Origin: Nitrospirota bacterium
GTDB taxonomy: Bacteria; Nitrospirota; 9FT-COMBO-42-15; HDB-SIOI813
Length of the DNA stretch: 38,133 nt
Assembly: GCA_016217665.1 (NCBI GenBank)
Contig: JACRHF010000057.1
Coordinates: 1 to 38,133, forward strand
Reading direction: 5' to 3'
Shown here: piece after piece, positions 6,174 to 37,324 of the stretch
Numbering within the stretch: the first letter of the stretch is position 1
Layout: each line of letters starts with the position of its first letter
Translations under genes and position numbers: made by a program
Notes under the pieces: generated by a model
The model's database searches: none
Seen by the model: the letters and a program-made list of their open reading frames with translations, nothing else
Told to the model about the DNA's origin: nothing

Positions 6174-6222
6174 GATCAAATCCCCCTTTATCCCCCTTTT
6201 CTAAAGGGGGGGAGGGGGGATT
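6174..6222. repeat. C-run/G-run palindromic repeat, copy A
   Basis: A short dispersed repeat. AAATCCCCC and a second C-run ending in CTTTT are followed by CTAAAGGGGG, another G-run and ATT, able to fold into a strong hairpin. It fills the gap between the sat stop and the purC 5' end. Four related copies or groups lie at 8903-8938, 17514-17552, 23857-23936 and 32351-32385. Confidence 0.85.
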
Positions 6223-6242: not shown

Positions 6243-7406
6243 TTATTCCTTCTTTGCTGACATGGTCTCTATGAGGATCTTTGCTACTTCCGGCCTTGAG
6301 AATTCTGGCGGCGGAGTGATACCACTTCTCAGCATCTCCCGGACCTTTGTCCCTGAGAGGGCGACATGTTCGACTGAATCATGAGGACAAGTTTTATAGG
6401 ATGCCATACTCGTACAGCGTTTGCAATAGAAGGTGTGGTCAAAGAACATAGGGGTGATGCCAAGTTCGCCATCTTCAAACTCGTCAAAGATATAGTGGGC
6501 ATCAAAGGTCCCATAATAATTGCCGACGCCTGCATGGTCTCTTCCAACGATGAAATGGGTACACCCGTAGTTCTTTCTTGCGATAGCATGGAATATGGCC
6601 TCCCTTGGGCCGGCATACCGCATGGCTGCAGGAAAGACAGCAAGCATGGTCCTGTCTTTCGGATAGTAATTTTCAAACAGCGCTTCATAACAGCGCATCC
6701 TGACTTCAGCAGGGACATCATCCCCCTTTGTAGCGCCGACCAGGGGATGAACCATGAGCCCATCTACAATCTCAAGTGCTGATTTTTGTATGTACTCATG
6801 GGCACGGTGTATAGGATTTCTTGTCTGAAATCCCACGACCCTTTTCCATCCCTTTTCCTGAAAGACCTTTCTGGTATCCGCCGGGTCAAGGCGATACTGC
6901 AGGAAATCCTGATGCCTGGGTCTCTGGAAAAGGGCGATCTTACCGCCTACAAGCACCGGTCCCGAATCATAGACATACTTCACGCCAGGGTGCTCGGCGC
7001 TATCGGTCTTGTACACCTCGATAGCCTCCTTTTCCTTGTCGTGAGGATAAATATCTTCCACAGTTATCAAGGCCAGAGGATGTCCTTTCTCATCCATTAG
7101 GGCCACTTCATCTTTAAGCGCAAGACCATCGGCTACCTCTTGGTCAACCGAAAGCGTGATGGGGATGGACCAGGGCAGGCCGTTGGTAAGACGCATCGTG
7201 TCTATCACTGAATGATAGTCATCCCTGCACATAAATCCTTCCAGAGGACTTAAGGCCCCTATGGCAATCATCTCAATATCAGAGACTTCCCTCTGTGACA
7301 AAGGGATCTTTTTTAACTCCCTGGCCTTTAACTCTGCCATCTCTCTGTCTTTTCCACGTAGTATGCGGTTAATCAATTTACCGCCATGCGGTATGGAATG
7401 CAGCAT
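6243..7406 (-). CDS. sat: Sulfate adenylyltransferase (ATP sulfurylase)
   Basis: Makes adenosine 5'-phosphosulfate (APS) and pyrophosphate from sulfate and ATP, or runs in reverse. The 387-residue protein is the single-chain Sat type, not CysDN. The nucleotide motif [11 protein letters not shown] spans residues 194-204 and [12 protein letters not shown] starts at 288. C328, C331, C340 and H342 match the zinc site known in several bacterial and archaeal Sat proteins. No APS kinase domain is attached, so the product would be APS, not PAPS. A clear ribosome site (AAGGAGGAGG) lies upstream of ATG 7406. It follows the siroheme reductase by 44 bp in an operon with aprBA, which gives a complete sulfate-to-APS-to-sulfite-to-sulfide set. 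Confidence 0.95.
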
Positions 7407-7450
7407 TTGTAATACCTCCTCCTTGTTAATTCATTTTAGGGTTCTATGAT

Positions 7451-9817
7451 TCAAGCCTTTTCTATCACTATCCTGTAATGCTTGTCCTCTATCTTTTCTT
7501 CTTCGAGTATCTTATGACCTTCGTTCAAGACGCTCCTCGGCACATTCTGGTAGGGTTCCCCATCATCAATGATGATTTGCAGTACCTGGCCGGCATCCAT
7601 CTCCTCTAATTTCAACTTTGTTTTTACAAAGTTATAAGGGCATGCCACCCCTTTTAAGTCTAACTGGGCATCAATCTTCCTTTCCATGGGTCGTTTTACC
7701 TCCTTCTTTGATTCTTCTTCCCGTTGCCGGAATTTAAAGTTCTTGTCAATCTGACTATAGGCCTCCTGAGACTCTCTTGCCAGAATCTTTGCGAGGGATA
7801 TCTTTTCTTTAATCTTTTCCTTTGATGCAGGTTTTCCATAATCAGTAAACAGGGGCTCAACGCTACCGGATACAATGCATTTGTCAATGATCTTATCCTG
7901 AAACTCCCTGAGGAGTTCCGCCTCTACCTCGGTATCAATCCCAAAGGGGACCAACATTCCCTTAGAGATGGAGATGATGGCCCGCTCAACCCACTTCAGG
8001 GCTTCATCAACCTGCCCTGCATCAAAGAAGAGCGCAGCCTCGGCCGCCTCCCGGCTGCCGGAGATAAGGCAATCTTCTATCAAATCGACCACGCCACCGG
8101 CACACTCCCCGGCCCCGAGTTTTACCACAAAGTCCTTTTCAGAGCCCCAATCGTAATAGTTGTCAGGAGACTCTGCAAAAGATGGGATGGAGGTATGTGC
8201 CCCTAAAAAGTCCTGTATGTAATCTAATCCAGCCCGGTCAACATACTGGTAAAACGGTTCTCCCGGCAGGCGCTCTTTCTGATACAGAGAGACAAGTCCT
8301 GACACTGCCTCCGGGATGTTCTTTGCTGGGAGTTTTATATTAGAGTCTCCGATGACGGCACGATTATTCCCGATACCCCCGCGAAGGTGCAACTGATAGT
8401 GCGGCACAAGGCGGCCGTCTATCTTTTTGGCAACGCCATGGAAACCGATGTCGGCGATATGATGATGACCGCAGGAGTTCGGGCATCCGCTCACCTTTAT
8501 CCTCACATCCTCAACTTCAGCATCCTCCCGTGCCGCGAGCCTTCTTCCAATTGCAAAGGCCAATTGTCTTGATGATGTTAAGCCAAGGTTGCATGTCTCC
8601 GCACCCGGGCAACTCTGGATGTCTATCATCCTTCCGGCCCCTGCCAGGGCCAATCCCTCTTCTTTTAAGGCCAGATACAGGCTGTGCAGATCTTCATCCC
8701 GCACCCATTTCATGATGAAGTTTTGTTGCTGCGTTACCTTTAGGCGTCCATGGGCATATTTTGTTGTGATATCTGCCAGTCTTCGCATCTGTGCTGTAGT
8801 AATATCCCCCATCACTAACCGCACATTTACGGTATGATAGCCATCCTGCTTCTGCCGAAGGACATTGGTGCTATGCCATCTATAAAAAGAGGGGTCTCCA
8901 TTACCCGTACCCCCCTTTTTTAAAGGGGGGGTACGGGGATTCTCAAGGTTGTCCCCGGAGGGCAGGGTAAAAGACCAGGTCCTCGATGTCTTGAGGATCT
9001 GGAACTCGTTTAAAATCCTTTGCTTAAGTTCTTCAAACCCGATCTTTTCCAGCAGGAATTTCATCCTGGCCCTGCTCCTGTTTTTCCTTTCCCCATATTG
9101 GTCAAATACCCGTAATATGGCCTCAGATAAGGGTATCAGGTCCTCTGCCGGCACAAATTCATCCAGAACCTGGGCTATCTTGGGATGAGGCCCCAGGCCG
9201 CCTGCAATATAAATCCGGAAGCCGGCCTTCTCAGTCCCATTGACCTCCCTTTTTACGGCGATGGCTCCTATATCATTGATGGGCGCCATCGCACAGTCTT
9301 TAGAGCATCCGGAAAAGGCGATCTTAAATTTCCGTGGAAGGCTCTGGCAGACCGGATTTCTCAAAAAATAGGAGGTGGTCAATGTGGCATAGGGAGCGAC
9401 ATCGAACACCTCATCAGGACAAGTGCCTGCTAAATAACATCCGGTCACATTCCTGACCGTATTCCCGCAGGCCTCTCTTGTCGTCAGTCCCACCTCGGCC
9501 AGGAGTCTCATGACCGTGGGCACATTTTCTAACTTCACATAGTGGAATTGTATGTCCTGGCGAGAAGAGGTATGGGCTATTCCATTTGAGAATCTATCTC
9601 CGATATCTGCCAATCTTTTCAGCTGTTCAGAGTTCAGAGTGCCCTGGGGTACCTTGACCCGTACCATAAAATCTTCTTTTTGACGCTGGCCATAGATCCC
9701 CTGCTGGAGTCTGAATCTCTTAAATTTCTCTTCTGGAATTTCATTACGCCTCAGGCGGCCGATCTCGGCCTCAAAGGCATCTATTTCTTCAAGTACAAAA
9801 GATGGTATATTCATCAT
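7451..9817 (-). CDS. Two-repeat siroheme sulfite (or nitrite) reductase fused to a TusA-like domain
   Basis: A 788-residue hemoprotein with two ferredoxin-like/siroheme half-repeats (about 45-270 and 310-530), a helical region (about 560-700) and a C-terminal TusA-like domain (about 715-788, Cys726 in GVACPYNF). The catalytic half has the usual siroheme-[4Fe-4S] cysteines, C403-x5-C409 and C445-x3-C449. The substrate-side basic residues of the N-half appear conserved: R86 (SSRQDIQ), R122 (NTVRNV), K163 and K165 (PRKFK). Unusually, the N-half also carries a full set, C127-x5-C133 and C171-x3-C175. A palindromic repeat is translated in frame as about residues 295-309 between the halves. Sulfite reduction is inferred from the sat and aprBA neighbours; nitrite as substrate cannot be excluded. 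ATG 9817 has an AGGAGT ribosome site. Confidence 0.88.
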   Translation of the reverse strand: MMNIPSFVLEEIDAFEAEIGRLRRNEIPEEKFKRFRLQQGIYGQRQKEDFMVRVKVPQGTLNSEQLKRLADIGDRFSNGIAHTSSRQDIQFHYVKLENVPTVMRLLAEVGLTTREACGNTVRNVTGCYLAGTCPDEVFDVAPYATLTTSYFLRNPVCQSLPRKFKIAFSGCSKDCAMAPINDIGAIAVKREVNGTEKAGFRIYIAGGLGPHPKIAQVLDEFVPAEDLIPLSEAILRVFDQYGERKNRSRARMKFLLEKIGFEELKQRILNEFQILKTSRTWSFTLPSGDNLENPRTPPLKKGGTGNGDPSFYRWHSTNVLRQKQDGYHTVNVRLVMGDITTAQMRRLADITTKYAHGRLKVTQQQNFIMKWVRDEDLHSLYLALKEEGLALAGAGRMIDIQSCPGAETCNLGLTSSRQLAFAIGRRLAAREDAEVEDVRIKVSGCPNSCGHHHIADIGFHGVAKKIDGRLVPHYQLHLRGGIGNNRAVIGDSNIKLPAKNIPEAVSGLVSLYQKERLPGEPFYQYVDRAGLDYIQDFLGAHTSIPSFAESPDNYYDWGSEKDFVVKLGAGECAGGVVDLIEDCLISGSREAAEAALFFDAGQVDEALKWVERAIISISKGMLVPFGIDTEVEAELLREFQDKIIDKCIVSGSVEPLFTDYGKPASKEKIKEKISLAKILARESQEAYSQIDKNFKFRQREEESKKEVKRPMERKIDAQLDLKGVACPYNFVKTKLKLEEMDAGQVLQIIIDDGEPYQNVPRSVLNEGHKILEEEKIEDKHYRIVIEKA
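8903..8938. repeat. C-run/G-run palindromic repeat, copy B, translated in frame
   Basis: A near-perfect palindrome (ACCCGTACCCCCC, a T-run, then AAAGGGGGGGTACGGGG) inside the siroheme reductase gene. It keeps the frame and encodes roughly RTPPLKKGGTGNG, a basic, flexible stretch in the linker between the two half-repeats. The core matches the intergenic copies elsewhere in the window, and no stop codon is created. Confidence 0.85.
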
Positions 9818-18591: not shown

Positions 18592-18614
18592 GGAAAGCCT
18601 CCTTTTATTAAATA

Positions 18615-18691
18615 GGGTTCAAGGGGTCGAGGATTCAAGTGGTCAAGTGAAATCTATTCGACCCCTCGAACCCTTGAATCCTGGACCCCTT
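18615..18691. repeat. Imperfect inverted repeat overlapping the glgA 3' end
   Basis: Arms 18621-18639 and 18673-18691 are complementary at 18 of 19 positions. An alternative pairing of 18615-18630 with 18658-18673 matches 15 of 16. The right arm lies inside the glgA coding region and encodes its last 14 or so residues. The left arm lies in the glgA-pfk gap. Confidence 0.7.
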
Positions 18692-31236: not shown

Positions 31237-31430
31237 GATGACGGCTTCGTAAAAAAGTCTCGACAGCGGACGGCTTTGTAAAAAGTCCATATGCAAGGCG
31301 CGCAAATCCTGAGGAGTGAGGCGTACATTTTCAGGTACGCCTCAATGACGAAGGATGCAGCGCAACGCCGCACGACCCATTGCATTTACTTCGCAGCAAT
31401 GGGTAACCGCTTTTTACAAAGCCGTCAAGG
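31237..31430. mobile_element. MITE-like element with terminal inverted repeats
   Basis: Perfect 17-bp inverted ends lie at 31269-31285 and 31410-31426, bounding 158 bp. A degenerate extra copy of the left end is at 31237-31259. Inside are two hairpins: 31317-31326 with 31335-31344 (10 bp) and 31376-31383 with 31396-31403 (8 bp). No transposase is encoded. It resembles dispersed non-autonomous elements, and its right end supplies the stop codon of the radical SAM gene. Confidence 0.75.
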
Positions 31431-32303
31431 ATAGGTCTCTGAAGGGAGAGACGCAATCTCCTGAACCTTCCCGGCAATAAAGTTTAGTTCATCCTCAGAG
31501 AGCGGGGTGACATCATCCTCAGCAGGTGGTCTTGCAGCAGTATATATCTGGACAAGCCTTACCCGGCCTCCACGCACTGTCAGTCTTTTAAGTAATTGGC
31601 AATAGTGCTCTATCTCCTCTCCCTGCGGAGGCTGGTTGTTGATCCTGTTAAAACAACTCTGGATGACAATAGGGTGTCTCTGCGCTGTAGCGATTAAATT
31701 GCGGACGATATCGCCAAAGGGGATACGGGTCCGTGAGGTCCTCCTGTAGCAGGCATCACTCCCTGCATCGAGCTTTGCCCAGACCTCTCCATTGTTCTGA
31801 TACAGGATATCGAGTGCATCCTGGACCTTTGGGCGGTTGAGGCCGGAGGCATTGGTTATCAAGACGACCTTTATATCCCCGTAACACCCCTCCCTGACCT
31901 TCAATATTTCTTCAATCACCTTGTAGAAGCAGGGGACCATGGTCGGCTCGCCGTCTCCCGATATGGCTATATCCGATAGATGTCTTAGTTTAGCGGGTAT
32001 CTTGTCAAAGGGGGGGAGAGAAAAGATCCTTCCTGTCTTAACGAGGTCTAAGGTCTCTTTTAACTCACGGGAGATCCGGGGGATGTCGCCAGGAAAAGGG
32101 GACAGATTTATTTTCCCGTCAAGGGAAAATAAATCTGTCCCCTTTTCCTGGTTCCTCTCCACCTGACAGTAGATGCAATTAAAATTACAAACCTTATCCG
32201 GATTAAGATTGATGCCTACGGAGATTCCCTTAGATCGTCTTGAGAGGACAGGATAGACATATCTATTCTCCTGAAATGAGCGGCTATGCTGTGTGTAAGG
32301 CAT
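31425..32303 (-). CDS. Radical SAM protein (COG0731/wyosine-like) with an in-frame palindromic insert
   Basis: A 292-residue radical SAM enzyme. The [4Fe-4S]-SAM motif CNFNCIYC has C39, C43 and C46. SGDGEPTM is the glycine-rich SAM-binding stretch and VLITNASG a later strand. The overall pattern fits the COG0731 group, related to the tRNA wyosine enzyme TYW1 but without a flavodoxin domain. The reaction is unknown. Residues 52-72, six positions after the last cluster cysteine, are encoded by a 63-bp perfect palindrome and are probably extra to the fold. ATG 32303 is preferred. An upstream in-frame TTG at 32339 overlaps the -35 box of the apparent promoter, which would make this transcript nearly leaderless. 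Confidence 0.87.
   Translation of the reverse strand: MPYTQHSRSFQENRYVYPVLSRRSKGISVGINLNPDKVCNFNCIYCQVERNQEKGTDLFSLDGKINLSPFPGDIPRISRELKETLDLVKTGRIFSLPPFDKIPAKLRHLSDIAISGDGEPTMVPCFYKVIEEILKVREGCYGDIKVVLITNASGLNRPKVQDALDILYQNNGEVWAKLDAGSDACYRRTSRTRIPFGDIVRNLIATAQRHPIVIQSCFNRINNQPPQGEEIEHYCQLLKRLTVRGGRVRLVQIYTAARPPAEDDVTPLSEDELNFIAGKVQEIASLPSETYP
32089..32151. repeat. 63-bp perfect palindrome inside the radical SAM gene
   Basis: Arms 32089-32117 and 32123-32151 are perfectly complementary over 29 bp around a 5-base loop (GTCAA). The length is exactly 21 codons. The core reads GGGGACAGATTTATTTTCCC on the plus strand. It is translated without a stop as QEKGTDLFSLDGKINLSPFPG on the minus strand, in two joined blocks. 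It resembles dispersed REP-like sequences seen intergenically in many bacteria. Confidence 0.95.
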
Positions 32304-32309
32304 GACATC

Positions 32310-32339
32310 AGAATAGCCCGTAGGGCCTCGATGTGTCAA
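32310..32339 (-). promoter_or_regulatory. Probable promoter of the radical SAM gene
   Basis: TTGACA (32334-32339) and TATTCT (32310-32315) are 18 bp apart on the minus strand. The expected start falls at or next to ATG 32303, suggesting a leaderless mRNA. Confidence 0.45.
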
Positions 32340-37098: not shown

Positions 37099-37324
37099 CT
37101 CGGTGAAAGGTGGGGTTGTAGTCCCTGAGCGACTTGCCGAGAGCAGTTGGCACCTGACTTTTTAAAAATTGGGGCGAGCAGGCGGAGCCGTAGTTGCCCA
37201 ATTTATTGGGCTTCCAGGTAACGAAGCCTGATAAATCAGGCAACTACAGCCTGCGAGTCCTTAGACAGGTCAACTGCGAAGGCCAGGAGCGAAGGGACTA
37301 CGACCCCACCCACCATTGACCGAG
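37099..37324. mobile_element. 226-bp foldback (MITE-like) element or structured RNA
   Basis: Most of the sucC-carbonic anhydrase gap. The ends form long imperfect inverted arms. The best block pairs 37112-37125 with 37293-37306 and includes TGGGGTTGTAGTCCCT against AGGGACTACGACCCCA; outer CTCGGT pairs with ACCGAG. Inside, 37190-37198 pairs with 37239-37247, enclosing two tight hairpins at 37197-37210 and 37227-37240. No credible protein is encoded. Confidence 0.65.

Follow-up and report, generated by a model that had tools for sequence, protein, structure and literature searches.

A probable miniature TIRYT/RAYT-type palindrome read in frame in a radical SAM gene of a groundwater Nitrospirota bacterium

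The stretch of DNA analysed here (the window; 38,133 nucleotides) carries a radical SAM gene whose open reading frame runs on the minus strand from 31425 to 32339 (304 aa, with an in-frame TTG at 32339) and whose product gives a weak but real match to the Pfam radical SAM profile (27.8 bits). Within this gene lies a 63-bp inverted repeat whose arms are 100% complementary (Table 1). An earlier note on this DNA described it as a perfect palindrome of 21 codons without a stop, beginning six residues past the last cysteine of the cluster motif, and both statements hold: the palindrome occupies residues 52-72 counted from the internal ATG, or 64-84 from the TTG. The encoded peptide follows CQVERN directly and in frame. 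As read from the sequence, only one of the three forward frames of the palindrome is open, and the palindrome stands one base out of register with the codons (..AAC CAG GAA .. CCT GGC..).

Table 1. Positions of the palindrome, its parts, its host gene and the arm-bracketed transposase unit (window coordinates, except for the last row, which lies on contig C15)
Feature	Position	Strand	Remarks
Host radical SAM gene	31425..32303	-	Counted from internal ATG; C-x3-C-x2-C cluster motif
Perfect palindrome	32089..32151		29-bp arms (32089-32117 and 32123-32151), 5-nt loop; peptide in frame QEKGTDLFSLDGKINLSPFPG
Outer flank	32089..32093		Copy-specific CCAGG, mirror of CCTGG opposite
Left family arm	32094..32115	+	AAAAGGGGACAGATTTATTTTC
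Spacer	32116..32124		Copy-specific CCGTCAAGG, paired CC/GG and loop GTCAA; GGCTCAGCC in the G003 copy
Right family arm	32125..32146	-	Left arm inverted
Mirror flank	32147..32151		CCTGG
C15 transposase unit	7045-7963		Gene 7058-7750 (minus strand); inverted arms at 7045 and 7946

The palindrome had been judged improbable by chance, and about 3e-12 such repeats are indeed expected in random sequence of the same composition; its RNA strand has a folding energy of -63.4 kcal/mol (z = -8.6). An origin by chance or codon constraint is ruled out by the existence of a genome-wide repeat family. An artefact of this one assembly is also rejected, at the level of assembled sequence, as other assemblies agree: another assembly from within the genus (G001) has the same insert up to its contig end, which falls inside the hairpin, and a genome of another genus (G003) has a sister palindrome in the same loop of the protein.

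A genome search for the arm, run with the 18-nt half-site GGGGACAGATTTATTTTC, gave 54 matches in the 1.71-Mb genome (reversed control, 0), mostly intergenic and some in ORFs. These half-sites make up about 30 palindromes and also some unpaired arms, in part where a contig ends. The arm common to all copies reads AAA(A)GGGGACAGATTTATTTTC, while the spacer is copy-specific, ranges from 6 to about 90 bp and in some copies contains another repeat. Among the 28 palindromes tested, 20 lie at most 25 bp from the 3' end of an ORF encoding 150 aa or more; three copies are certain to lie within genes (radical SAM, anmK and a signal peptide), and most of the others hug stop codons. Both exact arms also occur as a palindrome in 60 stretches of GTDB genomes from several phyla (Pseudomonas, Ectothiorhodospira and other gammaproteobacteria, Nitrospirae, Deltaproteobacteria, Aerophobetes, Latescibacterota and SAR324). 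The Pseudomonas palindromes share a fixed spacer, TACAAACT, and whole palindromes thus also move as units. By BLASTN, a Pseudomonas-type palindrome had no counterpart in the genomes or plasmids of E. coli, and a literature search for the 18-mer half-site found nothing.

The family is associated with a Y1 transposase. Three Y1_Tnp matches are present in the genome, and one of the proteins, on contig C15 (HVH at 60, YIELN at 121), is encoded between two inverted arms, with the stop codon of its gene falling within an arm. Y1_Tnp was its sole Pfam match at E ≤ 0.001, and the C-terminal HTH of class 2.1 was not detected with the Pfam profiles. Arms of the same sequence adjoin four genes (L189, L197, L219 and L269) whose transposases are 49-54% identical to the C15 protein, the first three being all the palindrome loci with a transposase in this range; three of the hosts are gammaproteobacterial (one gene being on a P. 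aeruginosa plasmid) and one belongs to Latescibacterota, whereas two genes for divergent transposases (28% and 31% identity) have no such arms beside them. The plasmid, NZ_CP116719.1 (L269), has such a transposase gene in three places (best identity 54%), and both transposase genes in the stretch read lie between the same arms; they are found there among small genes, one of them of endonuclease type. No close copy of the C15 transposase (E ≤ 1e-40) was found in G001 or G003. Among 296 Nitrospirota genomes, transposases further removed from the C15 protein frequently terminate in GTCCC-type sequences of other kinds (aaccGTCCCC, GGGATGTGTCCC), which suggests sister repeat types.

The loop that follows the CxxxCxxC motif of the radical SAM enzyme varies in length and sequence, and the insert is absent from relatives G002, G004, G005, G007 and G009. 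The interval from CQVDR to DI measures nine residues in five family genomes vs. 22 in the window protein, so that the insert has replaced about 8 native residues. Thus, of the clean gap predicted for close homologues, the absence of the insert stood but the pure addition did not. The broader proposal of a REP-like element tolerated as peptide agrees with the dispersed family, the copy in an ORF and the close relatives without it. In G006, the radical SAM gene (L042) has two CCCCCTTT-type units in frame (TPPSPPFNKGG..PPLTKGGKGG) that occupy the loop of the palindrome, and this unrelated repeat marks the loop as a repeated target. A PDB search with the radical SAM alignment returned spurious helical matches only.

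Other genes have taken up the element as well. In anmK on contig C81 (Pfam AnmK), the palindrome brings a net gain of ten residues and relatives have none, while the anmK of G003 has a shorter sister-type palindrome (AATGGGGACAGATTT/AAATCTATCCCCATT) at exactly the same place. In radical SAM and anmK the net gain falls about 8 codons short of the length of the element, so native sequence was replaced in both. A gene on contig C19 has two arms around an apparent signal-peptide hydrophobic core (MKKMKGKGDRFIF-LVFLAIMLTG-WKINLSPFPAHA), an arm pair common to G001 and absent from G003 and G005, with overall length similar. Different palindromes in the same protein loops of relatives make it directly testable which loops accept mobile peptides. 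Outside this genome, a DnaE2-like polymerase of another bacterium (L221) contains a copy, the only one in other genomes that clearly falls inside a known domain; the long ORFs that cover palindromes elsewhere mostly have no family match, or none that spans the insert, and are regarded as doubtful.

The window and its relatives hold several further repeats. A second palindromic repeat, CCCCCTTT..AAAGGGGG, occurs at 156 places in the genome (control, 1); in the window it is found at 8904-8937 and also at 6192, 17530, 23874, 23904 and 32354, and in the linker of a sulfite/nitrite-reductase-like protein it is translated in frame to PRTPPLKKGG, at a site where relatives carry other sequence of similar or greater length. 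Close to its N-terminus, the C81 anmK protein (L090) contains another stretch that resembles a repeat, SCHPELGSGSQNQEILKQVQNDN; this is probably a third dispersed repeat that is translated into peptide. An imperfect inverted repeat with GGGTTCAAGG/GGGTCGA motifs lies at 18614-18691, and G001 has a similar stretch past a stop codon that in the window genome is followed by a TIR palindrome. Inverted GACGGCTTCGTAAAAA/TTTTTACAAAGCCGTC repeats lie between two genes at 31239-31427, and the motif recurs in an intergenic stretch of G001. At 37109-37310, also intergenic, nested imperfect inverted repeats comprise a pair of 30-bp arms, separated by 142 bp, that enclose a 28-bp hairpin.

Taken together, the radical SAM palindrome is very probably a miniature, non-autonomous copy of TIRYT/RAYT type absorbed in a tolerant loop. 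The full unit would be a Y1 (HUH) transposase gene between the arms, and the miniature copy two inverted 22-bp arms placed back to back around a short spacer. Copies would have dispersed across the genome, with the Y1 transposase probably acting on them as single-stranded DNA, and those that survive would be mostly the ones just past stop codons; the C15 transposase may have moved the palindrome seen here. The window copy would have landed in the variable loop after the radical SAM CxxxCxxC motif, replacing about 8 native residues, and may have been kept because its frame is open and the loop tolerates a change of length. The gene is under selection: outside the insert, comparison with G001 gives dN 0.038 and dS 0.182 (dN/dS ~0.2), and as G001 shares the insert, purifying selection on the gene persisted after insertion. 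The radical SAM protein with its insert presumably works.

The flanks of the copies may bear on how the second arm arose. At positions 4-7 outward from the core, the flanks differ from copy to copy, yet left and right are complementary within a copy. The next four bases beyond the A-run form mirrored pairs in 27, 27, 26 and 21 of the genome's own 30 copies, against permutation means of 21.4, 14.0, 15.3 and 11.3 (p ≤ 0.0012), and the mirroring was repeated in 63 copies from other taxa. Four transposase-bearing units show the conserved 3-4 pairs only and no further mirroring, a difference which hints at formation of the second arm on the spot through hairpin-templated copying. These mirrored, copy-specific flanks are a concrete signature for how perfect palindromes arise and stay perfect. 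One tentative possibility, which would refine the explanation by TIRYT/RAYT miniature copies and does not exclude it, is that one arm arrives and template switching at a hairpin copies the arm and its flank inversely over host DNA. Such completion would give perfect symmetry, mirrored flanks and host-derived spacers, and would cost the host about one arm length of its own sequence. Besides the comparison of copies and units, it is consistent with the C19 gene, where the spacer aligns with what in relatives is the signal-peptide core, and the right arm stands in place of other sequence and is no addition. It also agrees with an orthologous site (C60/C67) where both flanks have changed together (ACAT/ATGT vs. 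AGAT/ATCT). However, the comparison covers four transposase units and one clean two-sided change, the fixed Pseudomonas spacer speaks for whole palindromes moving too, and insertion into pre-existing small palindromes would also mirror the flanks. Between template switching and a choice of small palindromes as targets, both the transposase units and the C19 gene speak for template switching, in small numbers. A somewhat more doubtful extension is that the coding palindromes are themselves built on site, a single arm landing and hairpin-templated copying mirroring about one arm length plus a few flank bases over the host DNA. If true, one mobile end sequence would suffice to make a perfect palindrome out of host codons, and no second insertion would be needed (cf. 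the signal-peptide core on C19).

It is unlikely, though arguable, that the radical SAM palindrome was inherited from the common ancestor of this genome (G000), G001 and G003 and its DNA actively kept. The G003 palindrome shares gene, loop, reading frame and 45-bp core-to-core length with that of the window; it is the only exact full palindrome in its genome, and the surrounding gene order is preserved on its contig (C97). However, the genes are 70% identical outside the insert, with 85 of 199 same-residue codons changed, and identical 22-nt arms despite such diverged flanking DNA cannot be explained by plain inheritance and drift. Furthermore, spacer and outer flank differ and the exact junctions lie 2-3 codons apart, G005 is without the insert at equal distance, and G006 has independently acquired its unrelated repeat in the loop. 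The identical arms can be explained by the use of a single permissive loop more than once, or by a renewal of the element at a later time. At C75/C4, a different sister palindrome occupies an orthologous intergenic site. Presence and absence at orthologous sites were seen for the radical SAM loop and for C3:7524 vs. G001 (intergenic, direction unproven); the latter has a 9-bp direct repeat around the element, the sole such case, and a consistent target-site duplication across copies was not established. The G001 'empty' sites at C9 and C86:18871 were rejected as clean insertion sites on account of arm remnants kept there; the 'empty' sites of G001 being partly deletion remnants, no clean empty site of proven direction was obtained. 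That the peptide was selected for a function beside the cluster is very improbable, for although two species of the same genus retain it and the rest of the gene has dN/dS ~0.2, the loop is variable, five family members do without the insert, another genus has an unrelated repeat there, and the G001 insert, identical as far as its contig reaches, indicates no protein-level evolution of its own.

Known systems resemble the TIRYT/RAYT-type copy proposed here to different degrees. Miniature inverted-repeat transposable elements (MITEs) are likewise short, non-autonomous inverted repeats that match the ends of a transposase-bearing unit, but the enzyme here is HUH/Y1 and not DDE, and the window family is without a consistent target duplication. 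The Rickettsia palindromic elements (RPEs) put forward in the earlier note are about 150 bp long, and nearly half of the first set lie in ORFs (PMC10969869). Like them, the present palindrome is read in frame within an otherwise ordinary protein, as in radical SAM, anmK and the signal-peptide protein. Unlike them, the window family measures 45-65 bp, is unrelated in sequence and has few in-gene copies; the CGTC-tagged end given for R. conorii RPEs (PMC3733652) does not occur at the ends of the copies. The comparison therefore stands for the reading as peptide, whereas the in-gene copies are a minority and TIRYT terminal inverted repeats are nearer kin. REP/BIME/REPIN sequences with their RAYT are also small palindromes past stop codons, with a Y1 gene bracketed by inverted copies and occasional in-frame ORF copies. 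However, the window family is a long perfect palindrome of two whole arms, and classical REP is rejected, the GTAG/GTGG foot being absent and the hairpin foot consisting of A-rich and copy-specific bases. The closest likeness is to TIRtron/TIRYT, where a Y1 transposase is flanked by GGGGWSAS inverted repeats and gene-less dimers are also dispersed. Every exact arm contains GGGGACAG, which fits the GGGGWSAS consensus as stated by Di Nocera et al. (2013; PMC3733652), a Y1/HUH gene lies between inverted repeats at C15 and beside such arms at four other loci, and the nearest subclass is probably 2.1 of Quentin et al. (2018; PMC6006769). The window element is thus a protein-coding member of the TIRYT-repeat kind from a groundwater Nitrospirota bacterium, and what it adds to this class of transposase-linked inverted repeats, which is widespread but has been little studied and whose arms recur unchanged in several phyla, is the in-frame protein-coding copies, which, like the copy-specific mirrored flanks, are not described in the portions of the TIRtron/TIRYT sources used.
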